Below, one piece after another: positions 1,009 through 52,467 of a stretch of 64,000 nt of DNA; position 1 is the stretch's first letter; each line of letters begins with the position of its first letter. Under the pieces are notes generated by a model. It was given only the letters and a program-made list of their open reading frames with translations, ran no database searches and was not told the DNA's origin. The position numbers were made by a program, and so were the translations under genes. The stretch is from Alligator mississippiensis (taxonomy: Eukaryota; Chordata; Crocodylia; Alligatoridae). The stretch is from positions 50,644,501 through 50,708,500 of the forward strand of contig NC_081825.1 in the NCBI RefSeq assembly GCF_030867095.1. The letters are read 5' to 3'.

Positions 1009-2645
1009 CTAATAGAAGAAAAAAAAAAGTAAATTAAAATGAAATAAAACACAGAGTACTCTGACCTTTCACTACACAAGAGGTAAAAAAATAAGTTATA
1101 CTCTCAAAAACTCTTCTGCCATTTATTACCTTAAGAATTGTGCTTAGAACTTGTTACTCATCATTAGTACACTACAGGTGTTTACAGACCCAAAGCAAAC
1201 TTTGATCACTTGAAGCTAACAATGCATCAACCATTCCTGTATATGTAGATGATTCCAGAAGACCATTTTCCCCTTTGACAGCCATCCCCCTGCAAAGTGC
1301 AATGGTCCCTCTAACGATGGACAGAGACACCAGGCCAATCAACCCCAGTAGTAATAATTATCTGCAGTCAAGTTTGGTACAAATAATAGTCCAACTTCCA
1401 AGGCACTGAATAACTCAGCCATGAGACAGAGCTTGAGATAACCACCAAATTTTCTCAACATAACCGAGGAGCAGATGCACAAAATTAATAATTCTAACAT
1501 AATCCAAACATAGTATGGATCTAAGTAAAAAATTTAAGATGAAGGTAAGTTAATCAAAATAACGATCTGAAAAAATGAACACAATTAAGTAAATTTAACT
1601 AATGGTATCACTTACTCCTACTATATAAATAGAAAGACATTTTTCCTTGATAAAAATTAGAAACTTAAATTTTAGTGGGATCCAGTATAAGCACATTGTG
1701 AACCTATAAGAGCAAATCACACTTCTAACAAACTGTCCATTTAAAAAAACATCATACAGTTTGTTTCTACCTATTTACAAACACTGTCTCCAAGTATGGA
1801 AGTCATATTAACAGCAAGCATTTTAGAAGCAGGTGAGTGACCAAAATTCACAGCAGACGGTGGGAGGGGTTTTTGACTACTTTCCATCTAACACTTGCTT
1901 ATTTTCTTCTTACACAGAGTTCATGTAAGTAGTTTCCTAGAAATACAGAACACTAGAAAAATTCCATTTTGAGCTATAACTACATTTATCCTTTGAAGTG
2001 TTTTTAAAGTAAAAGTGTAGTCCTATTGTTAAATTTATGAGTTTGTAGGATCATTGTGAAAGAAGCTTTATATAGTGAAAAATATCTTTTCGATAGTTTG
2101 TTATAGAAGTATCCTATTCTCATTGCTTCCTTCCTGACTTGGCGTCACCAGTTTACAAAGCCCGAAGCCAAATCGACTGTATGATTTGTAAACAAGAACT
2201 AGCATTTTTCCTCTGTAAAACCTGTGATTTATTTGCTGTCTTAAAAATTAAAAAAAATGTTCTTGTCTTAGGAGGCTCATTTTTTTTATGAAAATTCTTA
2301 TACTTTCCTCATAAACTAAGACCCTGACCCTGGCAAGCAGATGTGTGTGTTGAAATAAATGGAACTGTTCAAACAAGGTTTTGCCTACATGCATTTACCT
2401 GAAAGTTTGGGCCCTGATTTAATAACACTAGTGTTACTCAGCTATTTGCAACTATTTGATTATAACATTACTATTAATACAGTACTAGCTATGCATTTCT
2501 GATTGTAGGTGGCTAGTTTTAAAGTTCTTAAAGGAACAGCATCCAACTTAAAGCAGATTCTGCATGGGCAACAGAAAAACCAAGAAACTAGCTATTGTCT
2601 TGGCTAGGGACTCTGAATACTAGCATCAAACTTTCATTACCAATA

Positions 2646-3554
2646 CAGGTTGCCCTCACCAACCACAGGAGTTAGGATCATGGAAGTTACTGCGGTTGGC
2701 AAAACCGTGGCTCATAAGACAAAAGGCTTATGGGAAAAATGAGGTTAGGGACTTGACTATGAATAATAAAGGAACATACACTGTTTATAGACTGACCATG
2801 TATAGACTCACTAGGGGGGACCAGAAGGGTTTGGGGGAGACCTTGTTTCCCCCAGCACCCCCCGGGATAACAAGAAATAACGGCCATAAGTTGTTGGAGA
2901 GTAGGTTCAGATTAGACATCTGTAGGAACTACTTCACAGTCAGGGCGGCTAGGATCTGGAACCAACTTCCAAGGCAAGTGGTGCTGGCTCTTACCCTGGG
3001 GGTCTTTAAGAAGCGGCTCGATGCCTACATGGCTGGGGTCCCTTGCGCCCAGTTTCTCTCCTGCCCAGGCAGGGGGTCGGACTTGAAGATCTACAAGGTC
3101 GCTTCCGACCCTACTTCTATGATTCTATGAAATAATTTTTTATGTTTGCCACACACTCTCCACATGCTAGACAATCCAACAGCTCCAAATTTGTTTCCAA
3201 GGACATCACTTTCCTTGCCCTCTTCACAAATTGCTCACCTTCAGCACTCACTCACTTAGAGGCCATGATTAAGGGCAAAATTCAAAAATCACAAAGAAAT
3301 CGGGAGAAAAATTCAGAGCACCTACAACTGGATGTTAACAGCATGAAGCACAATGCAAGATTGAGTGTGTGTGAGGAGTTGGGAGCGCCACGGGTGGCTA
3401 GCAAGCATGCAGGTGATTTGAAATGGCAAGGTGGCGGGTTGATACATGGTGACAGAAAACTGTGGTTACTCAAAACTGTATACCATGGTAGCTAAAATGG
3501 TATATAGAATATCAAGTGTGGATGCTCAAAACCATGGTTGGCAAGGGAAACCTG
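2646..3554. mobile_element. Tigger/pogo-like DNA transposon remnant split by a CR1
   Basis: The left end reads CAGGTTGCCCTCACCAACC and the right end GGTTGGCAAGGGAAACCTG, so they are imperfect terminal inverted repeats. Each is flanked by TA, the target duplication of Tc1/mariner and Tigger-type elements. A CR1 3' fragment (about 2760-3131) lies inside it, so the DNA transposon is the older of the two. No transposase reading frame is left. The CAGG...CCTG ends resemble the Tigger-type element at 36650-37174, though the internal sequences differ. The exact family name cannot be settled without a repeat library. Confidence 0.7.
2760..3131 (+). mobile_element. CR1 LINE, 3' end fragment
   Basis: The plus strand encodes the C-terminal end of the CR1 ORF2 protein, including [31 protein letters not shown] and a segment with [13 protein letters not shown], then reaches a stop and the short CR1 3' tail with the ATTCTATGA repeat. 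It is strongly 5' truncated, as most CR1 copies are. It is inserted in a Tigger-like element. The reading frame is open over about 140 codons, so the copy is not very old. Confidence 0.9.
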
Positions 3555-6194: not shown

Positions 6195-7388
6195 CAGGGG
6201 TGGGCAATTATTTTCGCTGGAGGGCTGCAAGGGTAGCCCCCACCCTTGACAGGTGCCCTACCCCCTGGCTGTCATCTTGGGACTGGTAGTCCTGCCCCTA
6301 CCCCCTGACCTTTGCCGCCAGAAGTCCCTCCCCTTGTCCCCCAGAAATAATCGGGGGGGGGGGAGATTTGCCATCCTGGGACCAGAAAAAAAAAAAATCA
6401 TACACTAAAAGTCAAACAGCTGCTTAACATTTTAATTTTATTATAAAAAGTATGTTTGTCATATTTTGTGTTTGCAGTGTATGTAGAGGTGACTACATAA
6501 TAGCTCAAAAATAAAGTCTTACTGTTGTATACAGTGTGGGAGGGTGGTGTAGGTGTGTGTGTGGGGGTGTAAAGGAGTCTGGCTGGGGGGAAGCAATAGG
6601 GTATTTTGGCAGTGTGTATATGTGGGGGGGGTTGTGGGAGCAGGGTGCGGGTATGTGGACCACCCCCCATACACTCCCCACCATGGTGCACAACCCCTCC
6701 CAGCAGCAGCAGCTGGTGCTCAGGGCACCCATGCCCTGTGCAGGCACTGCCACCTGGAAACACATGGCTCCAGCCAGAACTGCACATGGTAGCAAGGAGC
6801 GCAGCCTGGCCAGCCTGCCCCTATTGTGCGGGGCTCTGCACAGTACACGTGCAGCTTCCAGCACTCATGTGCCATCAAGGGAAGCCCCACATGATGGAGC
6901 TGGCTGCCTTCCCCACTACATGTATTTACTTGGCAGGAACTGTACACCATGGGGGGGAGGGGAGAGTGTGTGAGGGGTCCCCACCGTCCCTCATCCTCCC
7001 TCACATTCATACCCTGCCCACCAGAGCTCTGCACTCCCGCCACCCTCTAGGCTGCGGATCTGCGCTTCTGCCAGCCCCAGTCCCATATTCCCTGCTCCCA
7101 CCCAGCTACAACTCCTCCCCCTGCCCCTACCACAGTTCCCCTTGCTCCCGCCGCTTCCCCACCTGCTGCCTGGAGTGAGTGCTGCAGCAGGGAGACAAAG
7201 AAGAGCCTTCGGATGCTGAGCAGGTTTCCCAGCAGCTGCAGCAGGTCGCCCAGAAGCTGCATGCGCACAAGGGTGGGAGTGAGGCGTGCAGGCTAGGGGG
7301 TTACAATTCATTGGTGGGCACCCACAGGATGGATGGAGTTGCCTGGTGGACTGGATATGGCCCATGGGCCGTATTTTGCCTGCCCCAG
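6195..7388 (+). mobile_element. Non-autonomous hAT element, complete, with 8-bp target duplications
   Basis: The left end CAGGGGTGGGCAATTATTTTC and the right end (GTATTTTGCCTGCCCCAG) are imperfect inverted repeats. They are flanked by the identical 8-mer CCCTAGGC at 6187-6194 and 7389-7396. Eight-base duplications are the mark of hAT transposition. The interior (1194 bp in all) is GC-rich with G-runs and codes for nothing convincing. Related copies lie at 12650-14816 and 58462-59444; the first shares the internal block around 6370-6550 (GTATATAGAGGTGA-like motifs). Perfect duplications suggest a fairly recent insertion. Confidence 0.85.
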
Positions 7389-9376
7389 CCCTAGGCTCTT
7401 GCCTTTTAAATAAAATTCCCTTTTCACCTAGACATGTGAAAACCCAGACCATAAAATATATTTTTTACTTTCCAATTCATCACTTCTCATGGTTCGCTGT
7501 TTCCTGAAAACTCACAGGTTAAATACAATAGTACTAACATTTTACAGCTCAATTTACCTTAAATATGAAGAAATGTTTTAAACACAAATGAATATTATGG
7601 CATATTTAATCTGGGCTGTCTCAACAAGAGCTACAAACTTTTCTACAAAACTGCTTCCTTCATGCCTACAGGAAAACCTAGTTTTCATGCCTCTTGCAAA
7701 TTACACCAACATGCAAAGTTATCTACCAAAAACAATAAAAGTACCTTCAACTGACAAGTAATGGGCTGATACTAATATTGGAGGGCCAAAGCAAAGTCAA
7801 CAGATGCTTAAAATGCAGTCAATCAGTACCTTCTTCCATAATGTAGGTGTAATGGAGACTAAAGATTCTAACAGAAGAGGTAAAGTGGATAATTTGTCTT
7901 TAATGGCTAGTCAAGTGTTCTTGTTTTCACTGCTGATTAAGTCAACCAAGCATCCATGTAAATGTAAATACTATGGTTTACGTTGGTAACAACCTTATAA
8001 GGAAGTAGCATCTGCAGCCTCTTAACTTCAAAACTAGAATCCCAGGTCAACAAAAAAATATTCTTTTGCTGAAAATCATCCTTCACAGCCAATACTAAGG
8101 CCATAATAGCTTCTTTGAAGTCTTTAAAAAAAATACTAGGTGGTTTTCAGCACATTGCTAGTATGACAGCACATAAGCCACTTCCTGAGTAAAGGCTTAT
8201 ATTTGTGTAGTACCTTCTCTTTTGACATTACTTTAAGGTAGATTATAGCTATTTGTATTGAAAGTTTATATAAAAAAAAAGTGTGAAGGATATGTATAAT
8301 TTTCTTCAATCTTCAGTGTTATATAATACATATCCTTCAAAATCTTCCACGGCCATCCTGTTTTTCTGGTGAAAAAAGAATATGGTAAGAAGCTGCGCAA
8401 CTGTAATGGATCATGAATCCAAAACTGTTAGACAAAAGTGACATCACAACATTTAAAGACAAAACTTCTTGCATTATGCAACATTTTTATAGGAGATACA
8501 TAATGGCAACACTTTTATGGCATCTATCTATGGATACCAAAAAAAACTTCTGTGAAAATGGGGCAGAAAATTAGCTGTGATACTCTGCAAACCTAGAAGT
8601 TCAACTCTCACTACTATAATAGTACATTTTTAATGCAAAAATGGGCCATTTCCTCCATTTTGGCTAATGATAAATAAACAGATATTCTGATCTTACTGCT
8701 TTATCTAAAAGTCAGCAACATATTTCAGTATTAGACTGTATATGCTATTTCATTGAAACTCTTCTTAAATTAGCATTTTATATTAAAGGACCTGTTGCCA
8801 ATTTTGATGGACTCATCAGTTTTAACAGTGCTCATAAAAGCTGGGCTTATGTCCACACTTATCAAATTCAGCCTAACAGTCCAATGCAATTGCCCTGTCC
8901 CCCATATGCGACTTAGGGATGTTCTCACAAATTTACAGACTTTGCCCACCCTGTAGATATGCCCCAATTAGACACCAATTTGGACATCCCAAAGAAAACC
9001 CCTAGCACAAGAAGCAAAATTGACTATGGATGACTTGCATTAATGCAGATCCTGATCAGAGTCTCATCTTCATTGATGCAATCTGTACTTCACAGTTCTT
9101 TTGCCTAGCTGTTGACCACCAGCGACTGAAATGTCCCACAAACAACCCCTTCATAGCATGATTCTCTTTCCATAATTTAGAGTTGTCCATCATGAAAAAC
9201 ATATATTTTGTGCCTTTCTTCTTGACTTGCTTGTTAGAGCAGGACATGCCCTGCTTTTTATGCATGCTGCTCTTCTTCAGTACTACCAATTGTGAAATAG
9301 AATGGATAATTAAATGATGCATCCATTTCAGTCTACATCTGCTGAGAAGCACTCTCATATAACTCATAGAGAAGCA

Positions 9377-9570
9377 GGGGTGCACTGATAGAGATTTTTT
9401 AGGCCAATACCGACAGCCAATTTTTAACGAGCCATATCTGCTGATACCAACCTGATTGCCAATATGCAGCCTGGCAACTTGGAGAGCAGCCAAAAAAAAA
9501 GCAGATGAATGCCAATACAGTATGGGACCAAATTTTCTTTTATTAATGCCGATACAATATGGGACCATTG
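9377..9570. mobile_element. MITE fragment of the repeated GATACCGATA type
   Basis: The segment starts CAGGGGTGCACTGATAGAG and contains repeated words such as GCCAATACCGACAGCCAAT, CTGCTGATACCAA and GCCGATACAATATGGGACC. Such strings are typical of a reptilian DNA-transposon family with GATACCGATA-like repeats, which I recall only by appearance. The far end is lost where a CR1 tail begins. Confidence 0.4.
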
Positions 9571-9574
9571 TACC

Positions 9575-9615
9575 TCTAGAAGTAAGGCTAGAAGGGACCT
9601 CAAGAAATCATCTAG
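9575..9615 (-). mobile_element. CR1 3' end remnant
   Basis: About 40 bases read AAGGCTAGAAGGGACCTCAA and continue to ATCATCTAGTCCA, the usual reverse complement of the CR1 3' terminal region. The remnant is cut directly by the hAT-like element that begins at about 9616. Confidence 0.6.
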
Positions 9616-11215: not shown

Positions 11216-11844
11216 CAGAGTCCTGCTTACATCCTTAAACATTAAGACCTTTTAGTGGGAGGAAGAGTCTCTCTCAGGCATCAGCCTGGTGTCAGATCTC
11301 AGGGCCAAGCTCCTACCACACCAGGCAGGCTGCAATATCAGAGTTACCTTCGCAGAAGCTTCCAAGGGACTTAGGAGCCACCAGCCCCCCCGTTTCTCTG
11401 AGACAGTGGTTTCAAGCGCATGGCCCCAGGAGTAGCGGAGGGACAGGGGTGCCTGCGCTGACACCACTGACACAGAGCACACACGGGGCTCAGTGCACGG
11501 TGTGGCACAGTGGCTGGGTAGGGAGCAGAGCACAGGGCTGGGGGCATCTCAGAGCATCTCAGAAAGGTGCGAGTTTTCACAGGCAGCAACCAGAGGGAAG
11601 GCAGGACCTGCCCGCACGTGACAGCGGGTCCCGCCGGGGGCATCCGGTTGTTGCCGGCGCGACTCAGATGTGGGGAGCCCCGGGGCGCGGTGGGGAGCGA
11701 GACCCGCGCGTCAGGCCGGGCCGCCCCGCGGGCTCCTCAGGGCAGCTCCAACCCGGGGGCACCAGCCCGAAGCCCCGCCGGGCTCCCGCTCCCACCCCCA
11801 CCCAGCAGGCCGGGCCGGGCCGGGCCGGGCCAGGCGCCGCTCAC

Positions 11845-11847
11845 CAT
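11845..11847 (-). CDS. RFC1: Replication factor C subunit 1, exon 1 coding part (start codon only)
   Basis: On the minus strand the sequence reads GCAGCATGGTGAGCGG. The ATG is followed at once by a consensus GTGAGC splice donor. Joined to exon 2 (GACATCCGA...), this gives MDIRKFFGV, exactly the expected RFC1 N-terminus, so exon 1 contributes one codon plus the 5' untranslated region. The position inside a CpG island supports it as the first exon. Confidence 0.85.
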
Positions 11848-11900
11848 GCTGCGGGCGACGGTTTATCCCGTTAGTGGGACGGCGCCAATCTCCATCCCCC

Positions 11901-11910
11901 TTCGCGCCAA
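11901..11910. promoter_or_regulatory. E2F-type site in the RFC1 promoter
   Basis: TTCGCGCCAA matches the E2F consensus (TTTSGCGC family) and lies about 55 bases upstream of the RFC1 start codon, within the likely 5' UTR or core promoter. E2F control is expected for a replication factor. Binding is inferred, not shown. Confidence 0.6.
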
Positions 11911-11950
11911 CTCCGGCCGCTGGCGCGCCCAGATGATGTCACAGGCACGC

Positions 11951-11982
11951 GGGGCGGGGCGGGGCGGAGCGGGGCGGGCGGC
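11951..11982. promoter_or_regulatory. Tandem GC boxes (Sp/KLF sites)
   Basis: Five closely spaced GGGGCGG-type hexamers fill this 32-base stretch about 105 bases upstream of the RFC1 ATG. They are classic Sp1-family binding sequences in TATA-less promoters. Confidence 0.7.
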
Positions 11983-13395
11983 GGTCAGGAGCGTTCGGAA
12001 CGCAAAACGCGGGGGCGGGGCCCGGGCTCGGCCGGAGTTGGCAGCTAAAGCTTTGCTAGGCCCCACCCGCTTTGCCGGGTTGTTGCGTGACTGGGCTCAG
12101 CGGCAGCGTCTGCTCGGGCACGTTCCGGCTGCTGGATTCGGCCCGGGGGCCTGGCGCGCCCCGGCCCTGCTTTGCCCGGGGTCGGGGGAGGAAAGCTCAG
12201 AAAGGCGGGCTAGCCCTGTCCGTTGGCACTGCTGGGCCTGTAAAAGATGTCACCCTCGGCAGTGCCTGCTCGCATCATGTCTGTGGGCTCCCTCGCGGCT
12301 ACAGCGTCTCTCGGACACTAACGCACCTACTGGGGCAGATGCAAGGGTCCATTCAGGAAAAATGGGGAAGAAACCTTTCAAATGTCCGCTGATTAAAGCC
12401 TTTAAAAAAAATCGTACTTCCATGCCCTGCTCCCCACGTTTCTAGAGGGGGGAAACCTGCTCAGGCTGTCACAGAACCTGCAGAATCCAAAACGGTTATA
12501 ACAACCCAAGCAGGTCATGCTCCAAATGCAGTCCTTTGGGGGGCTCCTGCTCTTCCTTGCCTCTTAGTCCCCTGGCATTTCTTGCAGAACTAGAGACGGT
12601 AGGGTAGACTTGCACCTTATAAACTAATGTAGTTTAGAGAGAGCTAGATGCGGGGTGCAGTTATTTCAGTTTTGACAAGCTGTCCAGACCATACTAGTAG
12701 TCCCGCGCCTTGACAGATGCCCGGCCCCTGGTTGCCTTCTTGTGACCAGAAGTCCCTCCTCCTAACCCCCGACCTTTGCCACCATAAGTCCCTCCCCTTG
12801 CCCAGGGAAGTTATCCTTTCAGCAGAGGTTTTGCCATCTTGGAACCAGAAAAATACCAAATCATATTCTAAAAAGCATTCATTAATTTGGTTTCAAAAAA
12901 TATTTTTCTCCTGATTTACATGTGTTTGTGTAGTGTATATAGAGGTGATTGGACAATAGCATAAAATGAAGTCTTACTCTTGTATATTGTGGGGGGTGGG
13001 TATAGGTTTGTGGGCAGGTGTGGAGTGAGGGGGTGTGTTTGTGGATATGTGGCGGGGGGGGGTATGGGGTTTGTGGGGGGCTGGGTGCCTGGGGCATGTG
13101 GGAGGTCTGTGTATATGGCAGTGCAAGAGGGCGTGGTTGCATATGTATGGTTGGGTGTGTGTATGGGACTTAGTCTATGAACACACACACTGTCCCTGCC
13201 TGCATACATACACATTGTGTTACACAAATTGCCAATTGCTCAAATCACGAGCGAGACCTTATGAGGGAAGATAAGGCAAGATGCCGCATTTACAGATTAA
13301 GCACCTAATACACACACACCACATTCATACCCCAATTTCTATTCTGCGCTGGTATACGTTACCAGTCTTATTGGTGCTTGAATCAATTTGGTGGC

Positions 13396-13785
13396 CAGCC
13401 AAGTTGATCATGAGTGGGAGCTGGGCCAGTCCACTTCCTGCCAGTCCATCCCATCAGACAAAATGATGCTCCAGGATGACAAGCAGAACAAGACCCCAAA
13501 TCAATATGTTGATATATTATAATATATGATATAATATATATACATATATATATATTATTATAATATATATAATATGTATATATTATATATTATATATAAT
13601 GTGTATATATTATATGTATATATTATATTATATATTATATGTATATATATTATATCATATATTATAATATATCAACATATTGATTTGGGGTCTTGTTCTG
13701 CTTGTCATCCTGGAGCATCATTTTGTCTGATGGGATGGACTGGCAGGAAGTAAACTGGCCCAGCTCCTACTCACGATCAACTTGG

Positions 13786-13788
<3 letters not shown>
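13396..13788. repeat. 393-bp near-perfect palindrome with AT-rich centre
   Basis: The arms 13396-13535 and 13649-13788 are reverse complements about the axis at 13592 (paired coordinates sum to 27184). I find only four arm mismatches, all in the outer 40 bases. The outer ~110 bases of each arm are mixed-sequence DNA (for example CATCAGACAAAATGATGCTC). The inner ~160 bases are almost pure A/T with TATATA words and continue the dyad. It could be a palindromic AT-rich repeat, a fold-back element or an inverted duplication of the host repeat. Confidence 0.9.

Positions 13789-13817
<29 letters not shown>
13789..13817. repeat. (TA)n simple repeat
   Basis: An uninterrupted AT dinucleotide run directly abuts the right arm of the palindrome, a likely slippage-prone site. 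Confidence 0.9.
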
Positions 13818-13819
<2 letters not shown>

Positions 13820-14450
13820 ATAAGGTGCATAGTATATCACCCCATCTTTTATAGCCTTGTCAATTCACCCAGTTCTCTGGGCTTTTGCTGGGTTATCATT
13901 GTGTTCTTTCTTGAAGGCTGATTGCCATGGGCGACTGGTGCCTCCTGAGTCTGGGGGGTACCAGATTGCCAATGCAGGGGGTCCCCCAATGACTGACTGC
14001 CAAGCCAGCAGTGAAACCAGAAGTTCATTTCTACCGGCACTTCCAGTTTCGTGGCTGGCACTTCCAGGGGGTGCACAGCCGATCTCAGTGGGTGCACGTG
14101 CACCCACGTGAACCCCTATGCATTGTCAATGTCAATTGCCGTTGTTCTCTTGCTGTTCTGGGGTGGATTCTTGTTTGGTCTTTTATCTGTCTGCATTCTT
14201 AAACCAGTCACCAGCTGATGTTTTCCTTTTCCACAAATACACGCTCACCCATACAACATACTAAAGAGTAAAAGGTCAAGCACTTATGTCAAGCTACAGA
14301 GCAATACAAAATGGAGTTTCTTAAGGCAATGCAAAACTTAAGAAAATACATAAGATTAAAAGCAATACGCAAAAGTCTATTTTCATGTTATTTACCTAAC
14401 ATCAAGCTGGTATTTATGCTATTTGCCTAACAACTGCTCCTACCTGTCCA
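13818..14450. other. Unassigned interspersed sequence inside the split hAT copy
   Basis: This stretch has mixed composition: a GC-richer part (about 13900-14120, with words such as GTGCACGTGCACCCACGTG) followed by an A-rich part (about 14215-14440). It is not present in the 6195 hAT copy, so it arrived separately. It may derive from a retroelement, but I cannot name the family or its ends and see no coding sequence. Confidence 0.35.
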
Positions 14451-14817
14451 CACACACACTGTCCTTGCCTGCCCCCCCCCTCCCCCCCCAACACACACAC
14501 CGTCCCTGCCTGCATGCACATATGCAATGCAAATACCAGCGCAGCCCCGTGCTCCCCTGTCCGGTGATGTAGCCAGCAGCCACATGGTGCTGGAGCAAGG
14601 TGGGGGCAGGAAGGGAGTGAAATGGCTGGGGGTGGGTGGGGCTGGGCTGTTCCGTCCTGCTGAAACTCCCCCTGGGTCCTACTGCCCTTGACTCGTCAGC
14701 TTTGACAGGCTGCTGGGGCAGATAAATATTCTCTAAATTTTTTAGGGGACCCACAGGCCAGACAGAATGTCTTGGCAGGCTGGATTCAGACCACAGTCTG
14801 TATTTTGCCTGCCCCGA

Positions 14818-14956
14818 GATAGATATATAGTCTATAGATACTATAGTCTATAGATACTATCTATCTGTCTAATCTAACTATATATGTATGTGTGTATGTG
14901 TGTATATATATAGATTTGTACCTTATAGATTAAACTAAATATATATATAGATATAT
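14818..14956. repeat. Degenerate tandem simple repeats (TATAGTCTATAGATAC / GTGTATGT / TATATA)
   Basis: The stretch holds repeated TAGTCTATAGATACTA units, then GTGTATGTGTGTATATATA runs. It lies between the hAT right end and the GC-rich block. Confidence 0.75.
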
Positions 14957-16361
14957 TCAAATATTATACAAGCCTAAGTCTGTTTCTGTCTGTCCATAAC
15001 GCTTTATTCACACTCTGATTGGCTGACAAACAGCCAATCAGAGTGTGAACAAGCCTTTGAACAGGAGGTGGCAGCGGTGGAGCACTGCTACGATGGTGGG
15101 GACACAGGGGTGGAGCGGGGGTGAGGCCAGCACAGCTCCCTGTTCCCTGGAGGCGGTAGCAACATGGCGGACAGAACAGGGGGGGCGAGGCCAGCAGTGC
15201 TGCCCTCGCCCCCCCCATCTTGCTCCCTGCAGGTGGCAAGGATGGAGCAGAGGGGGGCAGCGAGGCCAACAGAGCTGGCCTTGCCCCCCCTTACTCCTTG
15301 CAAGTGACGGCAGTGGCAGCATTGTGGGGGGAGTGAGATCAGGATGCCGCGGTGGGGGCAAAGCCATCAGCACTGGCCTCTGCACGCCCCTCCCCCCTTC
15401 CATTGTCACCACCATCTGCAGGGCCTGACGCAGGATGATGCAATGGTGGTGGGGGGAATAGTGGGCACACCGCCACGGTGGCGATGGAGGGGGGAGGGAT
15501 GGGTCCAGGCCTCATGTGGGGGAGGACTGGGCCCAAGGGTAAGGAGAAGTTGGGCCACCACAGCGAGAGGAGCAGCAGGCCTGGGCTGACCCAGCAGTGG
15601 GGGGGGGGGCAGGCAGATCGAGCTTGGGGCCAACACGGGGGAGAGGGGAGGCTGGGAGAGGAATGGGACCAGGCCCGAGGCAGGAGGGAGAAGCCAGCCT
15701 GCCACAGTGGTGGTGGGTAGAGCAGCAGACCCAGCCTGATGTGGCAGCAGTGGGGGGAGGGGAGCAGTGGGCCTCCCCCCCTCAGGCCCAGTCCCACTCT
15801 TCCCCCATCCCCTCTCCCCCACATCAGTTCCAAGCCCATTTCTTCCGTCCCCCCTGTCTCCACCACCGAGTCAGCCCAGGTCCGCTGCTCCCCCAATGTG
15901 ACGGCCCGGTTTCTCCCACGCATCAGGTCCGGGCCCACTCCTCCCCTTCCCCCATGACTGCTGCCGTGGGGGAAGCGGGCCTAGCCCAACGCGACCCAAC
16001 ACAGCAGCCTCCTCCCCCGTGTCAGGCCCGGGCCCACTCCTCCCCCACTCCCCCTTCCCCACGTCAGCTCCAAGCCCACTCCTCCCATCCCCCTGCCACC
16101 ACTGGGTCAGCCCAGGCCCACTGCTCCCCACCCCCCCACTGCAGTGGCCCGGCTTCTCCCCACCCTCAGGCCCGGTCCTCGCCCACATTGGGCCCGGGCC
16201 CATTCCTCTCCTCCCCCCGCCGGTGCAGCAGGGAGTGGGGGAATGGGCCTGGACCCCAAGCAGCAGGAGGGAAGGGGGGAGCGAACCTGGACAGGGGGAG
16301 CACAGGGCTCCATCCCCAGCCGCTCCCCCCGCCCTGTCATTCTTGATGGGCAATTGGCTAG
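14957..16361 (+). mobile_element. GC-rich 1.4-kb block with possible Helitron ends
   Basis: The left edge reads TCAAATATTATACAAGCCTA and continues into AGTCTG, which resembles non-autonomous Helitron 5' ends that I recall. The right edge ends CTAG followed by T, the Helitron 3' signature. A 19-bp perfect hairpin lies near the left edge (15007-15049). The interior is C/G-rich low-complexity DNA with repeated CCCACTCCTCCCC and GGGAGGAGTGGG words that open spurious proline-rich frames on both strands. A GC-rich minisatellite without mobile ends is the alternative. No Rep or helicase coding is present. Confidence 0.35.
15007..15049. repeat. 19-bp perfect hairpin with CCAAT/ATTGG core
   Basis: TTCACACTCTGATTGGCTG, a five-base loop ACAAA, then the exact reverse complement. 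Each arm contains a CCAAT box in the CAGCCAATCAG context, the optimal NF-Y flanks, in opposite orientations. Confidence 0.85.
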
Positions 16362-23033: not shown

Positions 23034-25740
23034 CACCAGAGCTGTGAGGTATTGGAACATGCTCAATGAGGATGGAATCTTCAGAAATGTTAGCTGCTAA
23101 ATTTTAAATCTCTTATGGGCATGTGCAAACTGGGATTTTTGAAAGCTTACAACTTGTCCAAATATAAGTATATTTTCAGAGAAAGAGTAAAACGTACATC
23201 CCTGTCAAATGTCAAGACCCTGCTTCAAATATGCAGACCACAGCTTCTTTACCCAAAGGTTACCAGAATATTTTAATGCAGCCAAAACAATCCACCTTTA
23301 TTTTGCCTCATTCTCAGAAATTACGGAACCATTTTAGCTGAAATTTAAAAAAATTAAAATAACAAAAAACAACCATAAAACAGAAACCTGGCATGAAAAA
23401 ATTCAGCCCAAACATCAAAGTTCAGCAAGGAGCCAAAAAGAAACTTACAGGAAATATCTGGTGTCTTAATGATAGCATGCTACCAGCCCTGACTATAGTA
23501 AGGAAAGAAAAGCAGCTCCTAACCTTGTCTAGTCTAGAACATTTTGTGGTGCAAGTACCTACTACACCTGTCAGATGCATCATTCAAACACACTACATTT
23601 TTTACAGTCATGCACAAGTGCTGGAAGCAACATGGCAGTCCTGGTAGAAAAGCTTATAATTTTTGTATCTTGCATTGCATCACTGCTCTTACAGCACTAG
23701 TGTTGATCTTCCAGCTGCAATGTCACCTATACTCAGGACAGCTGTCTAGTTTTGAGCTGTTGTAGCTTTTGTGATCCCATGCATATGGTTTTTTTTCTGC
23801 TTGGGTAGAATGTAGTGCAGGCCCCTTTTCAGGGTGTGTGCTGGAAATTTTGGAGTATTGTATTCAAAGGACATTTGGTGCCTGGGTATGTTGACCAGGC
23901 TTACGTTAGATAGAAGGCTACTGTGGATGCACTAAACTTATTGAACTCTGTAGTGTGGACAAGGCTAATGTGTCAATAATACTGTCATTCATTAACTATG
24001 TTGAGAGACTTTTTTTTATGAATGTGCTGCAGAGAAACACATACAAATCACTGTAGACCTAGATGAGTTTTCATTTATTATAAATACAATGTTTGTAGAT
24101 TTTACTTTTAGGGATAAAATATATTAAATCTCCCAATATTCTAATGAGCTTCATTGTTAAACAAAGTTGCTACTGAGTTCTATGAATCTACTCAGAAAAG
24201 GTGATTTAAATGTGAGTACAGTTCATATTATAATTCCTAAAGAACAGTAATCATCTCAGTCCTGTAAGTTGAAATTTCAGCATATGGGTACACCTTCTTT
24301 TATTTTCTTTCAGAAGTCTTCCTAAGACTTGATTATATTTTCAAATACTGGCTAACTGGTCTGTAGGAGACCCATTACATTGGTGGCCCAGTTATATCTG
24401 CTGTGATTCTTAAACAAATTAATCTGTAGCAAAAGAGCATCCTGCTAATTATCTGTATCAAACAAATAATAAAAGGAAATTGCCCACGGCCTGAAACAGA
24501 CCTCTAAGGCTTTGTTCTGATAATGTCTGCTCTATTGAGAGCTTCACAGCAGTCTGTTAGATAGTCAGTAAAACCCGTTGCATATGACTGGATAATATTT
24601 AGTTGCTTTGCATTTTCACATCGTTAATGGGATGTTTGTCAATCTCTCTCTTCCATTTAGAAGCTAAAAATGAACTGGCTTCACAATATGATTTGCCACC
24701 TGAACACATATCCAGGGCCACAGGAGGGAAGGGGTGACTAAGCTAAACCAGAAGGATGATGGAGCCTAACAGGGCAGAGAGAATGCACGTGGTCCTTCCT
24801 CCAGGTCTTCTAACCTTTCCCAGGTAAGGTACCAATCCCAGATAGCCTTTGTTCAAGGTGAGAAAGACTGCCATAGATAGCATAAAGCTAGTGTGGCTCC
24901 ATTGGAGCCAGTAGAAGGCTTCCAGGTTAGAAAAGCAGTACACCAGATCTGCCCAGTTTGGCAGCAGGCACTAACTCTCTATGAGTGAACCATGTGGAAG
25001 ACCTCCCCAAGGAACGCATAGAAATTTATATCCAAGCAGAAAGCTGTAAAGAGGGATTAAGATGGGAAAGAATAATTAGGCCTAGTGAAGGGGAAAACAA
25101 ATGCTTTATTTTTCAGTTATCCAGTTTTTTTATTACGAACCCAGCAAGCCATAGCAGGACACAGGTTTTTGACAGGTGAAATATCCAAGCTAGCAAAAGT
25201 AACAAATATACCTATTGGTCTGCTTTTCTCTTCATTATGATTGTGTTATTTGTTATAAATTGAAAATATGCTTCTTAATTGGACTCTGTAGTCTGAAAAA
25301 TATTTCTTCTATATCTCCTTGAAATTCAGCTGGACCAGAAAAAAAGCCTGTTGCAACTTCTCAGTATCTTCTCTCACCTGGTATGCTGACATTTCAGTGA
25401 TGTAGCATGTAAACAATTATAAACAGGTTCATAAGTATTTATGTGATACAGGTAACCTATATTCTTGGAATAAGAGTAGGTGTCCCAATGACTGCAAGAA
25501 AGCCACCTCCCCTGAAATTGCACTGGTCTTTGTGACCCATCCTAGGTCTCACAGTTCAAGTTATTCATTGACAAGGCTTTTACAATCACAAGCTTTTACT
25601 GAGGCTTTGATAAGACACTCCAGCAGTTAGTGGCAATTGAAGGCAGTCTGCACAGCAGGGACTCTTAACAGGAATGAATGAATTTTCTCCAGCACGAATG
25701 AAAGAAATCTGACTTAATACAGATGCTATAAAAGGACATA

Positions 25741-26478
25741 ATGTGTGGCCAAAGACTGAAGAGATCTGTGACTTTTTGGACACTTGTTTTCATACGAACA
25801 GTTACTGGACTTGCCGGAGATGGAAGATCTGTGTGGAAAAAAGACCTTAGCCTCAGTCCTGTGAGTGGTACTCAGATGTTTCTATATGACACTTTTCCTA
25901 AAGAGTTTCTATGGGGGGTAGGGACTGGAGCATTCCAGGTGGAAGGCAGCTGGAGAAAAGATGGAAAAGGACCCTCCATATGGGACCACTTCATCCATTC
26001 AGAGTTCACAGACGCTGCCAACACAGCTGGCTCCAGTGACAGCTATGCATTTCTGGACAAAGACTTGTCAGCTCTGGATTTCTTGGGGGTTACATTTTAT
26101 CAGTTTTCAATTTCATGGCCAAGGCTCTTTCCCACTGGAGTGGTAGCAACTCCTAATGAAAAAGGACTCCAGTACTATAGCTCTCTAATTAATGCTCTAG
26201 TTCACAAAAATATTAAGCCCATAGTCACTCTGTACCACTGGGACTTACCTTTAACACTGCAAGAAAAATACGGGGGATGGAAAAATGAATCACTAATTGA
26301 AATCTTCAGTGACTACGCAACCTTTTGTTTCCAGACTTTTGGGGATCGTGTTAAGCATTGGATTACAATCCACAATCCTTATTTAGTTGCTTGGCATGGG
26401 TATGGTACAGGTATGCATGCACCTGGAGAGAAAGGGAAAATAGCAGCTGTCTACTCTGTAGGACACAATCTGATCAAG
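25741..26478 (+). CDS. KLB: Beta-klotho, coding exon 1 (residues 1-246)
   Basis: KLB is a single-pass membrane co-receptor that pairs with FGF receptors to bind the endocrine hormones FGF19 and FGF21. This exon encodes the signal-peptide region ([17 protein letters not shown], about 10-26) and the first part of klotho domain KL1, with [20 protein letters not shown] (47-66), [11 protein letters not shown] and [10 protein letters not shown]. At 208-213 the sequence is ITIHNP, where active GH1 enzymes have NEP, so the acid/base glutamate is absent, as in other beta-klothos. The ATG is the first Met after an in-frame TAA four codons upstream. The human protein starts 29 residues earlier. The donor is AAG|GTACAG, phase 0. 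A frame open through the donor reads only into intron. Confidence 0.96.
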
Positions 26479-27547
26479 GTACAGTACAATTGGATTTGAT
26501 TTTAACAACTATGAAAAATAACAGGAGGAACACTAATATGATAGAACAGAACAGATCTAGGACTGGGGAATACTAAGAAGTAATAGTAAGTGTTTAGGAG
26601 TCCTTTATCTTCTTTTAGTGTTTGTTTTAAAAGTCTGCAGCCAGTTCAATAACTGTGTTTTAAAAATACCAGTTAACTAATTCAGTTCAGTTACTTTTCA
26701 CTTGCAAAGCCTGACAACAGTGTTTATCTCCAGTTTGTCATGATTATTTTGCTAGGTTAAAATTTTTTCCATGTTTGTGTATTTGACAAATTCTACCACT
26801 AATAGTATCCACATAGAAATATTAACTGCATCCCAGTAAGATCGTATGGAAATTATTTCTTACCAACTGAACTAACAAAATTATTAGTTTTGTTTTGTTG
26901 TTGTTATTGCTAAAAAACAAATAGCCTCTGCCTGTATTTAAGAAATTACACTAAGCTTGTTCTGTTTTTAGCAGTATCAGTTTTATTATCAGTATTGTTT
27001 TACTTAGTAATTGTCTTCCGCGATGCTGTGCACACCCTATGGACTCAATGTTGTTAGCTGAGTTCAAAAGATGCAGGCAAAAGCACTGGTTCTAGCATAT
27101 CACTTGTTTCAGTTTATAGAAATGATAGAAGACACCTATCCATATGTCTTGGGAACTCTTGGTTTTATTTCAAACACTTTCTAAATACAACAGTTTAGAA
27201 GAAGAATGAATAATGCTAATATAGTCCTTTTTGTCAGCATATTTCCAAGTGTGTTACGAAAGAGTTATCATTATCCTGATTCCAATTACAAGCCTACTCC
27301 CTCCTCCTCACTTTCTTGCCATTACTATTACAACTTTCCTACATATTATGACTGTTTTTTGTGCAGGAATATGTATACCTAGAAACAGATTTTAATTGCC
27401 AAAGCAGCTAACATAGTTTACAATGGAACATTTCTCTTCTTTGGATTTGCTTCTGGATTTTTGGGCTCTCTGAAGCTTTTCTTTACCCAAACCTCCCATT
27501 CATTTAAATGTGAGCTTTAGGTGAGAAGGGTCAACAAGAATTAAGCC

Positions 27548-40594: not shown

Positions 40595-41105
40595 GCTCAT
40601 GCAAAAGTTTGGCACAACTACAACAGACACTTTCGGCCATATCAGCAGGGTGTTGTGTCCATAGTTTTAGGATCCCACTGGATTGAACCCAACAGATCAC
40701 AAGATGTTCTGGACATTAATAACTGTCAGCAGTCAATGGAGAGAGTTCTTGGATGGTTTGCAAAGCCAATACATGGGGATGGTGATTATCCGGAAGAGAT
40801 GAAAAATAAACTGCACTCATTTTTGCCCAGCTTTACTGAGGCAGAAAAAAACTATGTAAAAGGAACAGCTGACTTCTTTGCATTTTCCTTTGGTCCTAAC
40901 AATTTTAAACCCCCAACCACACTAGCTAAAATGGGACAAAATTTGTCACTTAATTTAAGGGGAATTCTGAAGTGGATTAAACTGGAATATACCAACCCTA
41001 GGATCTTGATTGCAGAGAATGGTTGGTTCACTGACAGCCACGTGAAAACAGAAGACACCACGGCCATCTATATGATGAAAAACTTCATTAATAAAGTTTT
41101 ACAAG
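40595..41105 (+). CDS. KLB: Beta-klotho, coding exon 2 (residues 247-417)
   Basis: This exon continues domain KL1. The acceptor is TTCTCATTAG and the donor ACAAG|GTTTGT, leaving phase 1 (the first base of codon 417). Characteristic segments are [60 protein letters not shown] and [14 protein letters not shown] (381-394). Glu387 in IAENG is the GH1 nucleophile position and is retained; with the 29-residue offset it corresponds to human E416, as I recall. Because the partner acid/base glutamate is missing in exon 1, KL1 should be inactive as a glycosidase. Translation past the donor gives unrelated residues, confirming the boundary. Confidence 0.97.
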
Positions 41106-44100
41106 GTTTGTATATCAGTTTAGTTTTCTTTCAATGTTCAGTGTTTCTTTAAAGGAGACACTATCAACTAAATTCATTATTAAGCATTTGTACTTCAGTG
41201 AAGCCCAGATACCAACCAGTACTCCATTGTGCGAGGTGCTCTATAAACACAGAACAAAAACATGATCCTGGCCCCATGTTGATAAAACCCAACTTCTAGG
41301 TTTGTTTCTCTTATTTTGTTATTCTTGTTTCTCAAGAAAAAACAAAAGATTTACCAAACTTTTTTTTTTTCCTATTTAAATGTTGTGCTTTTAAACCCAA
41401 ACATATGATCTTTGTGTTATGCACGAGAAGCAAACAATGAAAATAAGGAATAGAATGAGAATAGAATAGAATAGGAATAGAATAGGAATAGAATTAATAG
41501 AAGTGAATCTGACATCTTACTTTCACTATCTAACCTGAAGGAAATGCAAAACCTAAATCAGCAGCAGAAACTGGAATGATTCTTTAGTTTTAACAAAATA
41601 CATCAAATGTAATGTTTCAGTACAATGTTCATCTTGACATTTTCCTTTAATATGGGACTTTTGAAGGTAAAAGAGTTGCATGTTGTATTAAATGTAAATA
41701 ATTTGAATACACTATTAATATTTCTACAACTTCAGCATTTGGTTCTTTTTTCACTTACAGAGCTTTGTATTTTTAAGCACTCTTAGAGTGACCCCTACTG
41801 GTTGTGGAAATCAATAGTAACACAAATTTCCTTGCACTGCTTTCTTTTTCATGTAGCATATTTTCTTCTTGCTGGCCCTTCTTGTAGAATATGACATGTC
41901 TAGTTAACCAAATGTCTACATCATTTGGTATGGAATGACTCAGATCTTGTTACCAAAAATATTTACATCTTTCATGAGGAAGAATACTAGTGATCTCTTC
42001 TGCTGAGCACTAACACGGTTCTTTGAAGTTCAAGAAATAGTGTTACAAAGAAAAAACTTAAGAATATTTCATAAAAAAACCTGCCATACCTGTGTAATTT
42101 TCAGCAATATTAAATTTAGAGAGAGTCCCAGATCCTAAAGTTCAGGTCTCAACTTTCCCAGAGTTGAAAGAATTTAAAAGACGTTTGGTTTAAGTCTCTT
42201 ATCACTGAACTTAACTTTATCCCTGGGTCATCTCATCTATACTTACAAATTCAACAACCATGGTTATGCTGATAATTCATAAATCTACCACTGTTCCACA
42301 CCTGTCTCCTGTTTTTCAGATTAAAATCTTCTCCTACTTTGCTGACATCTCATAGATATCTTGGCATCAGGTCAAGCACAACTTGGCTAAAATTTATTTC
42401 TCAATGTTCCTTCACTCCTAATCACGCTCATCTTTTTTCTTAGTCACTGGGAACAGCCCCACACATCTGGCTTTCGCTTCAGCCCATAACCTAGTTGCCA
42501 TCTTCACCTCTTTCTAGGTTGCCACATCCTGGTTATATCTAAATATTACTGTTTCTTTCTGTATAACATACTTAAGATATGCCTTGTCCCATCCATCCAA
42601 ACAAGCGAAACTTTTTGTTAGCTCACATTTTGCTTACTGCAATATCTTTTTCTATGACAGCCTTGCTCTGCTCATATCCATACAGAACCCTACTGCAAAG
42701 AATATTTTTTCTTGGATTATGTCAAGTTCTTGGCCTATCTTCATTGGTTCTTCACAGGTTCTTCATGGTCCATCCTCATCTTACCAACAAACTCTCATTC
42801 ATTATGAAGAGGTGTAACTGGTAGGGGCAGGAGGGGAGTGGGGATTATATGGGCAACTGCCCAACACTGACTTGGAGATGGAGGAGAAAAAAAAGTGACT
42901 GCCGCTGGCATCTGCATGGTCATGTTTACAATGGCAGTGACAACTGGAATTCGCCACTTCTGCTTTGTCCCATGCTCCCAGCTGTGTCCCTGTACTACTT
43001 TCAGTTGTCCATTTGGAAGCTTCTTGGGGCTAACGTATCTTTTTAATTTATTTATACAATACTGTATACAATATTAATGTGCAATTCTGGTCCATGATCA
43101 GGATAGCTGAGGACTACAGCAATACAGTTAATGCCACTCAAAAAATAAAGATTATACCAAGGTATTACAAGGCAGCAAACGTCAGTAGAAAGCTGAAAAT
43201 GTTTAGCTTAGTGTTGTTCAAAGAAAATAAAGCAGAATATACTACTGGAGGGGATGGAATACCTGCTTTTAAACTGAAATGCCTAACTTTCCCCTGACTT
43301 CAACTGACCCAGTTGGGTCAGTGCCAAAACTCACATCAACTTCAGTAGGCTCAGCATTTCACCTCAGATTTTGTAGCCAGCTCACATCGTATTAATGCAG
43401 GATGTTCGTGTGCAGTGTTTCTAAAAAGTGACTCTGGTTGGCTCAGAGGATGGACTATGGAGCTTTTCTTCCAGGTGTCAGTCAGAATCTATCCCAAGTT
43501 TACAATGAAAGTTGTTACCTTCCTTATGCAGCTTTGCACCTATAAGTTTCTTTGGCAATCATGGGCCCAATCTACACTACTATAGTTTTGCTGGCAGAAG
43601 TATGAGTTCATCCACACTCACAGCTGGTGGCGACCCCACTTCTTTCTGCCTGCAGAACACCATCTCTTCAACCAAAAGGCTTCAGGTGCCACCCAAGAGT
43701 AAAAAAAAACAGGCACTCCTCTGCCTTCTCTAGCCCCTTTAACAGATCCAGCAGGCTCCTCATGCCCTATGGACACAGCTACTGACATAGACCCACACAC
43801 GTCCCTTTGAAGCCATGTGGGTAAATACATGAGCTGACAGCTTCTCTGTAGCAGCTGCTGTCTCTGGACAGAGCTCTGAGCAACAGAAACAGCCAATTGT
43901 AGACAAAGCTGCTGTTCCCTTCCCAGTGAACCAGTGTTTGTATTAGAGAAATCACCCTCACATTAGTCATTAAATGACAACTTTATTGTCTGCTTGAGCA
44001 GAGAAGCCTGCTCAGGCAGACACTAAGGACTGGACTGGCTGAAGGGGTCTGGACTCTGCACTACTTACTCCATCTCAAGCAAAGGTCTCTCCCACTTAAG

Positions 44101-45076
44101 GTTGACACAAAGTAAGACCATATGAAGAAACCTGCTGCACACATTCTGCGAATGAGCAGAGAACTTTGGTCTTTAGGCCTTTCAGTCTGGTTGCTTTCAC
44201 AATCATTACATTTAATGTTGCAGGCTATAAGGTAAACAGGGATTTATTATATGTTTTAAGTAGCAATGATAAGGTATGATACAAAGAAATGACAGAATCA
44301 TTGTTTCGACTAATGAACTGAGAAATACAAACCACTGTTCCTACAAATAACCCAGGGTCTCAGGATTCCCCGCACCACTACACAGGCAGCACTGGCAGAG
44401 ATGCACAGCCCTCCAGCATCCCTCACCCCACCCTACCACCCCACCTGCAAACAGGCAGTGCCAAGGATCACCTCCCCAGCACACAGGCTGCATGGGCAGC
44501 ACACACCCCTGCCCTCACTGCGTAGACAGCACCAGCAGCACATAGTCCCATCACTCCCAGGCCCACTCCTGCAGTGTGGCAGCTGGCTGGCGGCAGGAGA
44601 GGTAGCTGCATGGGCCTGGTGGCCTTCTGCTAACTTCTTACCGATTGCCAGTTGGATGGCCCTGAATTAACTAAAGCAGGCCAACTTTTTAGCCAGGCTC
44701 TCTAGTTTAGACAGTTTAAAATTTCACTTAAAAACTCCACAGTACAGTTTTAAATAATTTCAAGTAGTTGAAATCATTTTGTTTCTGAACCACATCCTAA
44801 ACTATTAAAACAAGCACAACATTATTATAGCACTTCATTTTTAAAGATATTTTCTGAAGTTGCTAGTGAAGAAGGACTAATCTATTAAATATCATCTCTA
44901 TTTGGCCATGGTTTTTGCTATCCATTAGAATGGTGATGAGAAACTGGGAATTTCATAATATACAATTAAACTCTCTGACCTTCATTTATTTTACAGGCTC
45001 ATACTGTAATTCATATTTCTAAGTTGTTAATGATTTTTTTCCATGTAACCCCTTTTCACTTATTTCTCCTGTGCAG
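41106..45076 (+). other. KLB: KLB intron 2 (4.0 kb)
   Basis: The intron runs from GTTTGT to GTGCAG. It contains an imperfect AATAG/GAATAG tandem tract (41446-41497), transposon-like GC-richer pieces around 42820-42910 and 43560-43970, and a C-rich piece at 44380-44640. None has termini good enough to name a family. No coding exon was seen. Confidence 0.75.
41446..41497. repeat. (GAATA/GAATAG)n simple repeat
   Basis: Tandem GAATAGAATA and GGAATAGAATA units, slightly irregular, lie in KLB intron 2. Confidence 0.85.
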
Positions 45077-45345
45077 CTATTAAATATGACGGTATCAGTG
45101 TGTTTGGTTATACTGCCTGGTCTCTCCTTGATGGGTTTGAATGGCAACATGCCTACAACACTAGACGTGGATTATTTTATGTAGATTTCGATAGTGAGCA
45201 GAAAGAAAGAATTCCTAAGTCATCTGCACTTTATTACAAACAAATAATTCAAGATAATGGATTTTTTCTGAAGGAGTCTCCCCAGGGGCTACAAAGTCAA
45301 TTCTCCTGTGACTTCTCCTGGGGTATCACAGAGTCTGTTCTTAAG
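45077..45345 (+). CDS. KLB: Beta-klotho, coding exon 3 (residues 417-506)
   Basis: This exon ends domain KL1 and begins the linker to KL2. It starts after CTCCTGTGCAG in phase 1 and ends VLK at a GTAAGC donor in phase 0. The GH1-family end motif is clear: [20 protein letters not shown], then [20 protein letters not shown] with [22 protein letters not shown] (494-506) is the interdomain segment shared with human (CDFSWGVTESVLK, from memory). The human protein has DAYTIRR where this one has HAYNTRR. Confidence 0.97.
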
Positions 45346-45519
45346 GTAAGCATAATATACTGCAAACCTCTGTTAATTTCCATGTATTTAACCATGAAAA
45401 AAAAATCTTTGTACATGTCTCTATATAGTACTTTTCATCAATGATTTCAGAACACTCCACATATATAAATCTAACCTCAAAATAAACCTTTAAGTATAAA
45501 AGTATCTGTTTGGTAGCCC

Positions 45520-46476: not shown

Positions 46477-47399
46477 AATGACTGTATGGCTATATATACT
46501 GCCTTTTTTGCCTGAGCCATATTCAGAAACAGATCATATTGTATACTGTCATGATAAAAGATTTGGTTTTATGGCATATATTTTCACATTAAACTTTATA
46601 GCTGTATTTGACATGGGACAGGTGCTGTAGCACAGCTTTGTAATTATACAATGAAAGGTAGCACAGTGGAAGACCTCAGGCAGGAAAAACGCTTACCAGC
46701 AAAATAAATTTAATTTAACCCAGCCACAATTAGACACAGGAAGTAAATGCTTCTACATATCATATTGCTAACCATTGAGAGGGGATACCGTAGCATGGGG
46801 AAGGATTTTCTTCTCAGTATGTTTTAAGGTTGAATTTAAAACTTTTTATTCACCACATGGTACAAGTCCTACGCAACAAACTAAAGTAAAAAATTAGAAC
46901 AGTAACAACACAGTAACACAAGTGCAGTGCTGAATCTTGTTAGCTATCAGAGATCACTATTGAAACCAATTATATTAACTGCTTGCCCTGACAAGTGATA
47001 AGAGTATAGCAATCAGTGCAGCTAAGTGTAAGACAGGTCCTGCTGGTTAGGGCTAGCTAGTAAAGCAACTAACAGTCCTGTTTTGCTCTTACATATCACT
47101 GTTGCCCTGAATAACTCTGGACAAGACAATCACTTACTTCATGCCCCATTTATATAAAGGATGCAACTTTTATTCAGAAATGTTGTAAGGTTTGATTAAC
47201 AAAACCTCTGCCCCCATGCTGTTATGAAATGCCTACAAACTACTAGGCTGCAGAAACAGAACAGTAAGGAGCTTCCTTTCCTCACTGCTTTATTTCACAA
47301 GTAAAACTTAAGTTAATTCTTTCTTCCATATAGAGTTAACAAAGACACCTGTTTAATGAATATACATTTGAATACATTTATTCCTATTCATTTTTACAG

Positions 47400-48543
47400 G
47401 CTGAGTTGGTAGCTTCCTCTCCACAGTTCTGTGATCCCAACCTGTATATCTGGAACGTCACTGGAGATGGGCTTCTGCACCAAGTTAAAGGAGTGAAGCT
47501 GAAAACACGACCAGCTCAATGTACAGATTTTGTTAGCATTAAGAAACAACTTGATCGCCTGGAAAAACTGAAAGTCACTCATTATAGATTTGCACTTGAT
47601 TGGTCATTAATTCTACCCAATGGAGATTTGTCAGCTATCAATAGGCAAGTGCTAAGATATTATAGATGTGTGATTAGTGAAGTACTGAAACTCAATATTA
47701 AATCTATGGTAACTTTATATTATCCAACTCATGCCTACTTGGGCCTGCCTGCTCCTTTATTGCAGGGAGGAGGATGGCTAAATCAGTCTACTGCCCAGGC
47801 CTTTCAAGATTATGCAGCTTTATGTTTTCAGGAACTCGGTGATTTGGTAAAATTATGGATTACAATAAATGAGCCGAACCGACTAAGCAACATCTATAAT
47901 AGAAGTAGCAATGATACCTACCAGGCAGCACACAATTTACTGCTAGCACATGGCATGGCCTGGCAAATCTATGACAAGCAATATAGGTCCATTCAGCATG
48001 GCCAGGTGTCCCTCTCTTTGCATTCAGATTGGGTTGAGCCTGCCAATCCCTATTTTGATACTCACTTGAAAGCAGCTGAAAGGTTTCTTCAGTTTGAGAT
48101 AGGTTGGTTTGCAGATCCAGTTTTCAAGAGTGGGGATTATCCAGCAGCCATGAGGGAATATATTCTCTCCAAAAACAAAAAAGGCCTCTCAGAGTCTTTC
48201 TTGCCATATTTTACAAATGAAGAAAAGAAACTCCTTAGAGGCTCAGCTGATTTTTATGCTCTGAATCATTTCACCACAAGATTCGTGATCCATGAACTTC
48301 AAAATGGAAGCCAGTATGAGTTTGATCGGGATGTTCAGTTCCTACAAGATATCACCTGTCTGAGTTCACCATCTCGCTTGGCAGTGGTGCCTTGGGGAAT
48401 TCGCAAAGTTCTACAATGGATTAAAAAGAACTATGGTGACATAGATGTTTACATCACAGCAAATGGGATTGATGACCAGTCTTTGGACAATGATGAACTT
48501 CGAAATTATTACTTAAGAAAATATACACAAGAGGTTTTGAAAG
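47400..48543 (+). CDS. KLB: Beta-klotho, coding exon 4 (residues 507-887 plus one base)
   Basis: This is the largest exon and carries nearly all of domain KL2, the part that binds the FGF19/FGF21 C-terminal tail in known structures. The acceptor is TTTTTACAG and the donor AAAG|GTGAGT (phase 1). Motifs: [49 protein letters not shown] (650-667), [31 protein letters not shown] and [11 protein letters not shown] (856-866). The NEP glutamate E664 is kept (human E693 with the 29-residue offset). The nucleophile position is Ala860 in ITANG, so KL2 lacks the other catalytic residue. A frame open past the donor stops within three codons. Confidence 0.97.
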
Positions 48544-51870: not shown

Positions 51871-52467
51871 GACTTTTTTTTTTTTTTTTTAAAGTATTAG
51901 GATAACTGAAATTACAGATAGGTGCTTAGAGAGATTTTCAAAGCTTATCTGCAATCTTAAATGCCTAAAACATTAAAAAAATCTGGCATTTGTAGATTAA
52001 CCACAGGATTTTAATGTAGGAACTCCTGATTCTAATCATGTTTCTAACAGACTTGCTAAACCTGTTGATGATTATGAAGTAGTAAGGAGTTGAGCATTAT
52101 TAGGGATGGTGTATACAGCACAGTGGTAAATATAATTATTTAAATTCTTTGTTTTGTAAGGCATCAAGTGACCTAAGGAAGGGTACTTCATGACTGAAAT
52201 CTTGTCCAACAGCTCTCCCAACTATACAACATAGTACAAAAGATATAAAAGATAATATAGTGGTCCTATAAAAGATAGTACAAAAAAACCTTTGCTTCTC
52301 ATACACTTCCCAGACCATGATGGTTACAACACCATTCCAACCTTGTTTTATAATGCAGTTCTAATTTTTAACTATACTAATATTTGCTGATAATCGAAAA
52401 ACAATTTTAAAATGGTTTTCAGCCTATGCATAAGGTTATAGTGTTAACATTCTCTTCTTCTTTGCAG

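Follow-up and report, generated by a model that had tools for sequence, protein, structure and literature searches.

Introduction

Short-range template switches, for which a four-point model has been described (Walker et al., 2021; PMC7954356), belong to the closest known systems for the palindrome treated here. In great apes, AT-rich sequence is enriched around the switch points and 65.0% of the events lengthen the sequence, while the copied length in the gold-standard set of that study has a median of 12 and a maximum of 128 nt (PMC7954356). RNA hairpins can also stem from template switching (PMC8794818), a point that carries no weight in the present argument. A second described route to inverted duplications is fold-back priming at breaks (PMC10622511; PMC7467729). 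Finally, the human palindromic AT-rich repeats (PATRRs) PATRR11 and PATRR22 are spacer-free, near-perfect palindromes with an AT content above 90% (PMC4940405). Literature searches returned nothing naming the present locus and nothing on palindromic AT-rich repeats in alligator.

The window, i.e., the whole stretch of 64,000 nucleotides that was analysed, contains an inverted repeat of 393 bp at 13396-13788 with its axis at 13592. These coordinates were first given by a sequence-only reading and are confirmed by inverted-repeat comparison. With a probability of about 0.8, the palindrome is an in-place inverted duplication within a single member of a dispersed family of ERV1-type solo LTRs, formed by a fold-back template switch in an AT-rich tract.

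The palindrome probably lies in the RFC1-KLB interval. By its motif, an exon on the minus strand near 1002 is RFC1-like, and a CpG-rich stretch at about 11250-12500, some 1 kb from the palindrome, may be the RFC1 promoter. Open frames resembling klotho exons are located at 25732-26499, 40595-41152, 45049-45444, 47340-48551 and 52434-52853; 25732-26499 and 47340-48551 are assigned to Glyco_hydro_1 (the GH1 domain; two of the five frames scanned, Pfam). By synteny, the GH1-domain frames from 25732 onward are probably KLB. No Pfam family was found in the open frames 9056-9607 and 2624-3130. Towards the end of the window, an open-frame fragment at 63194-63619 on the minus strand encodes part of a reverse transcriptase (RVT_1, E 1.3e-10).

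Geometry and Folding of the Palindrome

The palindrome consists of the following parts:

13396-13548, plus strand: left (parental) arm, composed of LTR sequence (13396-13509) and the start of an AT-rich tract (13510-13548)
13549-13635, plus strand: AT-rich spacer of 87 nt and inferred fold-back loop, its halves without homology beyond AT composition
13636-13788, minus strand: right arm, repeating 13396-13548 in inverted orientation with 4 differences by comparison of the window sequence

The two arms, each 153 nt long and separated by 87 nt, are paired at 149 of 153 positions (97% complementary). The sequence-only reading had extended the pairing to at least 196 bases with four mismatches, but this figure holds for the homologous arms of 153 bp only. 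Ungapped pairing of the 196-nt halves reaches 171/196, i.e., 25 mismatches, because the inner 43 nt pair at just 22 positions. By zone, 113/117 positions are paired in 13396-13512, 36/36 in 13513-13548 and 22/43 in 13549-13591. When the inner halves are aligned with gaps, the observed score is reached by 719 of 2000 first-order Markov sequences made from the core. The innermost 160 bases or so were rightly described as nearly pure A/T, the A+T content being 95% in 13512-13671. Across the 393-bp palindrome it amounts to 69.0%, and the outer 117 bp of each arm have a GC content of about 49%.

Folded as single-stranded DNA, the palindrome has a predicted energy of -188.1 kcal/mol, compared to a mean of -39.3 kcal/mol for shuffled sequences (sd 3.7; n=100), none of which was as low. 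An Rfam search of 12000-15500 with E up to 0.1 returned hits to seven microRNA models, none of which came near the gathering score of its model or overlapped the palindrome. Close inverted repeats were sought across 172,190 bases, namely the window plus 35 loci, by requiring no fewer than 14 exact 12-mer seeds on the same diagonal. The palindrome was the sole pair to pass; the 35 loci were all picked as LTR copies, with two repeating others, and are not a random sample of the genome. Elsewhere in the window there are three inverted pairs with arms of at least 80 nt, all of them at least 28 kb apart. Weaker close inverted pairs occur near the palindrome as well, for example one of 43 nt at 81%.

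The Host LTR

The neighbourhoods of the arm in the same assembly reveal it as an inner part of a longer, dispersed repeat that starts with TGTTACAC and ends with TAACA. In the window, this repeat comprises:

13218-14432, plus strand: candidate solo LTR of ERV1 type, TGTTACAC...CCTAACA, 1215 bp, compared to 33 other distinct copies
13214-13217, plus strand: left target-site copy ATTG, the right copy being ACTG at 14433-14436 with one mismatch
13925-14127, strand not assigned: second, separate insert of about 200 bp, as matches to other copies stop at about 13925 and resume at about 14128

The TG...CA ends and the length of the duplication fit a solo LTR of ERV1 type, for which a crocodilian LTR survey gives a target duplication of 4 bp (PMC4299795). 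Both ends, TGTTAC at the start and TAACA at the end, were plain by reading in 11 of 25 other rows; the 14 rows left out of these counts include some with a TGTTAC start but a wrong or missing end (L005, L006, L016, L019, L022). The LTR measures 609-685 bp in 10 of these 11 copies and 813 bp in one, and the window LTR comes to about 685 bp when its two inserts are subtracted from the 1215 bp. The 4-bp target duplications are perfect in seven of the 11 (L003, L004, L008, L011, L015, L025, L036) and have one mismatch in the remaining four (L012, L029, L032, L033). The LTR carrying the palindrome is an old, inactive retroviral repeat.

A search with the query 13396-13560 against the assembly from which the window comes (2.35 Gb in 195 contigs) gave at least 39 arm matches outside the window, with 40 of 205 first-look candidates scored. 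These 39 matches end at query positions 106-116, the AT junction being at query 114. The dispersal search proposed by the sequence-only reading thus distinguishes the single arm, which is high-copy as part of the LTR, from the whole palindrome, which recurs in 0/39 of the scored outside matches. That the outer arm came by a separate event also proved correct, as it belongs to an LTR interrupting a surrounding older repeat, labelled a broken hAT copy by the sequence-only reading, of which further instances are found at about 6233-6569 and 59031-59378.

Two further observations concern this LTR family. The insert at 13925-14127, possibly another small mobile element, has similar ATTGCC words at both edges. 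At G000 C1:395110775-395115692, two same-strand copies of the family stand about 4.7 kb apart, possibly as the termini of a single longer element.

The 327-bp Insert and In-place Copying

Compared to the other copies, the window LTR is interrupted by an insert of which the palindrome's right arm is a part:

13510-13836, plus strand: insert in the LTR, 327 bp, consisting of 126 bp of AT tract, the inverted copy of 153 bp and the remaining 48 bp of AT tract
13789-13836, plus strand: (AT)n of about 16 units (TRF, 16.5 copies at 13789-13822) followed by GATATAAGGTGCATAGTATA-like sequence, i.e., the rest of the AT tract
13427-13435, plus strand: 9-nt insertion common to both arms, a gap in 32/32 aligned other copies

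The LTR runs uninterrupted from the equivalent of 13509 to the equivalent of 13837 in 33/33 other distinct copies, read by eye (the 35 loci minus the duplicates L013, equal to L004, and L020, equal to L008). In the window copy, LTR sequence is preserved as far as 13509 and again from 13837, where it resumes. Matches to the right half outside the window begin at query 52-63 (window-equivalent 13831-13842) in 39/39 cases, the end of the insert being query 57; 40 of 226 first-look candidates were scored, and 39 is a lower bound. The stretch 13789-13836 is not covered by these matches.

Within the arms, the 9-nt insertion is a marker shared between left and right. L028 was left out of the alignment of this insertion, and in L023 and L035 good alignment is confined to the sequence downstream; in 39/39 cases, the arm matches outside the window fall short of the query stretch by 8-12 bases. 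The arms additionally share rare bases at 13451, 13463, 13482 and 13497, present in 1, 0, 0 and 2 of 32 other copies, respectively. The combination of the insertion and these four bases occurs in both arms and in no other sampled LTR copy. The arms also have in common the LTR/AT junction and 39 nt of the AT tract, with 36 AT-rich bases free of mismatches. On these sequence markers, the right arm is a copy of the left arm, made in place and after the AT tract existed; another donor is conceivable only among the unscored LTR candidates.

The left end of the palindrome lies in the middle of the LTR and the right end against (AT)n. By eye, there is no target duplication of 4 or 8 bp at these ends, and the right junction offers no more than about 2 nt of microhomology (TG, 13787-13788), which is insufficient to establish a landing point. 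Around the left switch the sequence is AT-rich, and a degree of pairing would be expected there in any case.

Formation of the Palindrome

The proposed event can be described in four steps. Firstly, an AT-rich tract of about 174 nt would have arisen between the LTR bases 13509 and 13837. Secondly, the strand being synthesised, in replication or in the repair of a break, would have folded back inside this tract, leaving a loop of 87 nt. Thirdly, backward copying would have taken in 39 nt of the AT tract and then 114 nt of the LTR, as far as 13396. Lastly, the strand would have come off in mid-LTR and paired again with the AT tract at about 13789, after which normal copying resumed. A fold-back switch in the AT tract accounts for the loop, for the return to (AT)n and for the sudden end of copying at 13396, inside the LTR. 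The pre-event form, i.e., the LTR with the AT tract and without the inverted copy, was present in none of the 33 other distinct LTR copies, which counts against the switch. So do the scant microhomology at the junction, the conceivable donor among the unscored candidates and the copied length of 153 nt, longer than any in the great-ape gold-standard set with its maximum of 128 nt (PMC7954356).

The main rival is repair of a double-strand break in the AT tract, in which the resected 3′ end folds back and is extended, after which end joining to the other AT-rich end closes the gap. It predicts the same arms, the same loop and a right junction in the AT tract, and the fold-back priming cited above is a documented source of such duplications. 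However, it requires capture of the second end at the same tract without loss of LTR sequence, as both the 13509 and the 13837 sides are intact, which counts weakly against it. Overall, break repair of this kind is considered a clearly less probable origin than the template switch, at a level that still deserves attention.

Other explanations fare far worse. The inverted structure, the AT-rich core and the ends CAGCC...GGCTG make the palindrome resemble a MITE or fold-back transposon that has inserted itself into the LTR. Yet the left arm runs on into the LTR sequence at its left in other copies, which means that its end is not the end of an element. The ends moreover lack a target duplication, and an inverted partner is found near 0/39 of the other scored arm matches (40 of 205 candidates scored), at odds with the high-copy MITE that the sequence-only reading had named as the alternative to its own view. 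On these three grounds the reading as a new mobile element or MITE was dropped, and we regard it as very improbable. Chompy is a crocodilian MITE-like repeat, and no report of it in a crocodilian context was found in the literature searched. Equally hard to credit is a second, independent LTR fragment inserted inversely beside the first: the family is abundant enough (205 and 226 first-look candidates), but two independent fragments would have to share the 9-nt insertion, the four rare bases, the LTR/AT junction and the 39 nt of AT tract. Palindromes are a known class of assembly and library artefacts, but a fold-back artefact is scarcely plausible here, as the arms differ by four transitions and the sequence past the right arm goes back to the second LTR half and its flank, whereas a read fold-back is expected to go on copying the leftward sequence with near-identical arms.

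Age and Arm Mismatches

For the fold-back template switch favoured here, an age can be estimated from the arms. At a crocodilian neutral rate of 3.9e-10 per site per year (PMC4299795), the divergence of 4/153 corresponds to 34 My, with a Poisson range of 9-86 My, supposing a crocodilian host, no gene conversion and no errors during the event itself. Given this rate, the palindrome is possibly tens of millions of years old, and the recent origin put forward by the sequence-only reading becomes doubtful.

The four differences, at 13410, 13416, 13431 and 13432, are all transitions. At 13410, the left-arm base is found in 25/32 other copies and the right-arm base in 3/32, which suggests a change in the right arm. 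At 13416, the other copies are divided (16 A, 14 G), while 13431 and 13432 fall within the private 9-nt insertion and therefore have no outgroup. The latter two form an adjacent CC/TT pair.

The arms had also been described as uniformly identical. Instead, the mismatches are confined to the outer 37 nt and the inner 116 nt are free of them, a distribution with a post hoc probability of about 0.003, or about 0.014 if the adjacent pair is taken as one event. This clustering leaves room for the inner arm to have been homogenised to some extent, for instance by the gene conversion that the sequence-only reading had suggested; 34 My would then be an underestimate.

Function and Significance

No function is indicated for the palindrome; the product is a sequence capable of forming a hairpin with a stem of 153 bp. 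Over its outer 114 bp, this stem matches many LTR copies at an identity of about 80%. In maize, Mu killer is an inverted-repeat trigger whose small RNAs silence its own element family. By analogy, the stem, if transcribed in the germ line, might yield small RNAs silencing its own retroviral family and thereby help the palindrome to survive, an idea that we consider highly unlikely. If it were true, the confinement of the mismatches to the outer arm would be a trace of the inner arm having been homogenised on a hairpin template.

The value of the locus lies in its being an unusually legible fossil of inverted copying. Since dozens of sister LTR copies serve as outgroups, the source, the limits of the insert and the private markers are open to direct reading. 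In a crocodilian host, the age of the palindrome would also inform how long a hairpin with arms of 153 bp can survive in a vertebrate germ line. The locus further shows that high identity between palindrome arms is no sign of recency where substitution is slow.

Comparison with Known Systems

The host repeat resembles crocodilian ERV1-type LTRs in its 4-bp target duplications and TG...CA ends, but the window copy differs by carrying two inserts (PMC4299795).

Compared to human PATRR11 and PATRR22, the palindrome has a similar length of several hundred bp, near-perfect arms, an AT-rich middle and the capacity to form a long hairpin, the latter as a predicted fold (PMC4940405). The sequence-only reading had likened it to these repeats. 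It is, however, no PATRR in the defining sense, because its AT content is 69%, with an outer 117 bp of arm at about 49% GC, and because its centre of 87 nt is non-homologous, in contrast to the AT-richer, spacer-free PATRRs (PMC4940405). It may nevertheless extrude or break like a PATRR.

With the conversion of quasi-palindromes to palindromes it shares hairpin-templated copying; the difference is that the other LTR copies are single-orientation here, with no pre-existing inverted repeat of the arm (PMC7954356). The likeness is closest to short-range template switches under the four-point model, with which it has in common the inverted local copy, the retained source, the AT-rich surroundings, the net gain of sequence and a hairpin-forming product (Walker et al., 2021; PMC7954356). 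It departs from them in its longer copy of 153 nt and its loop of 87 nt, the size lying above that of the great-ape set (PMC7954356). Altogether, the palindrome looks ordinary in kind and large for its class of copying accident.
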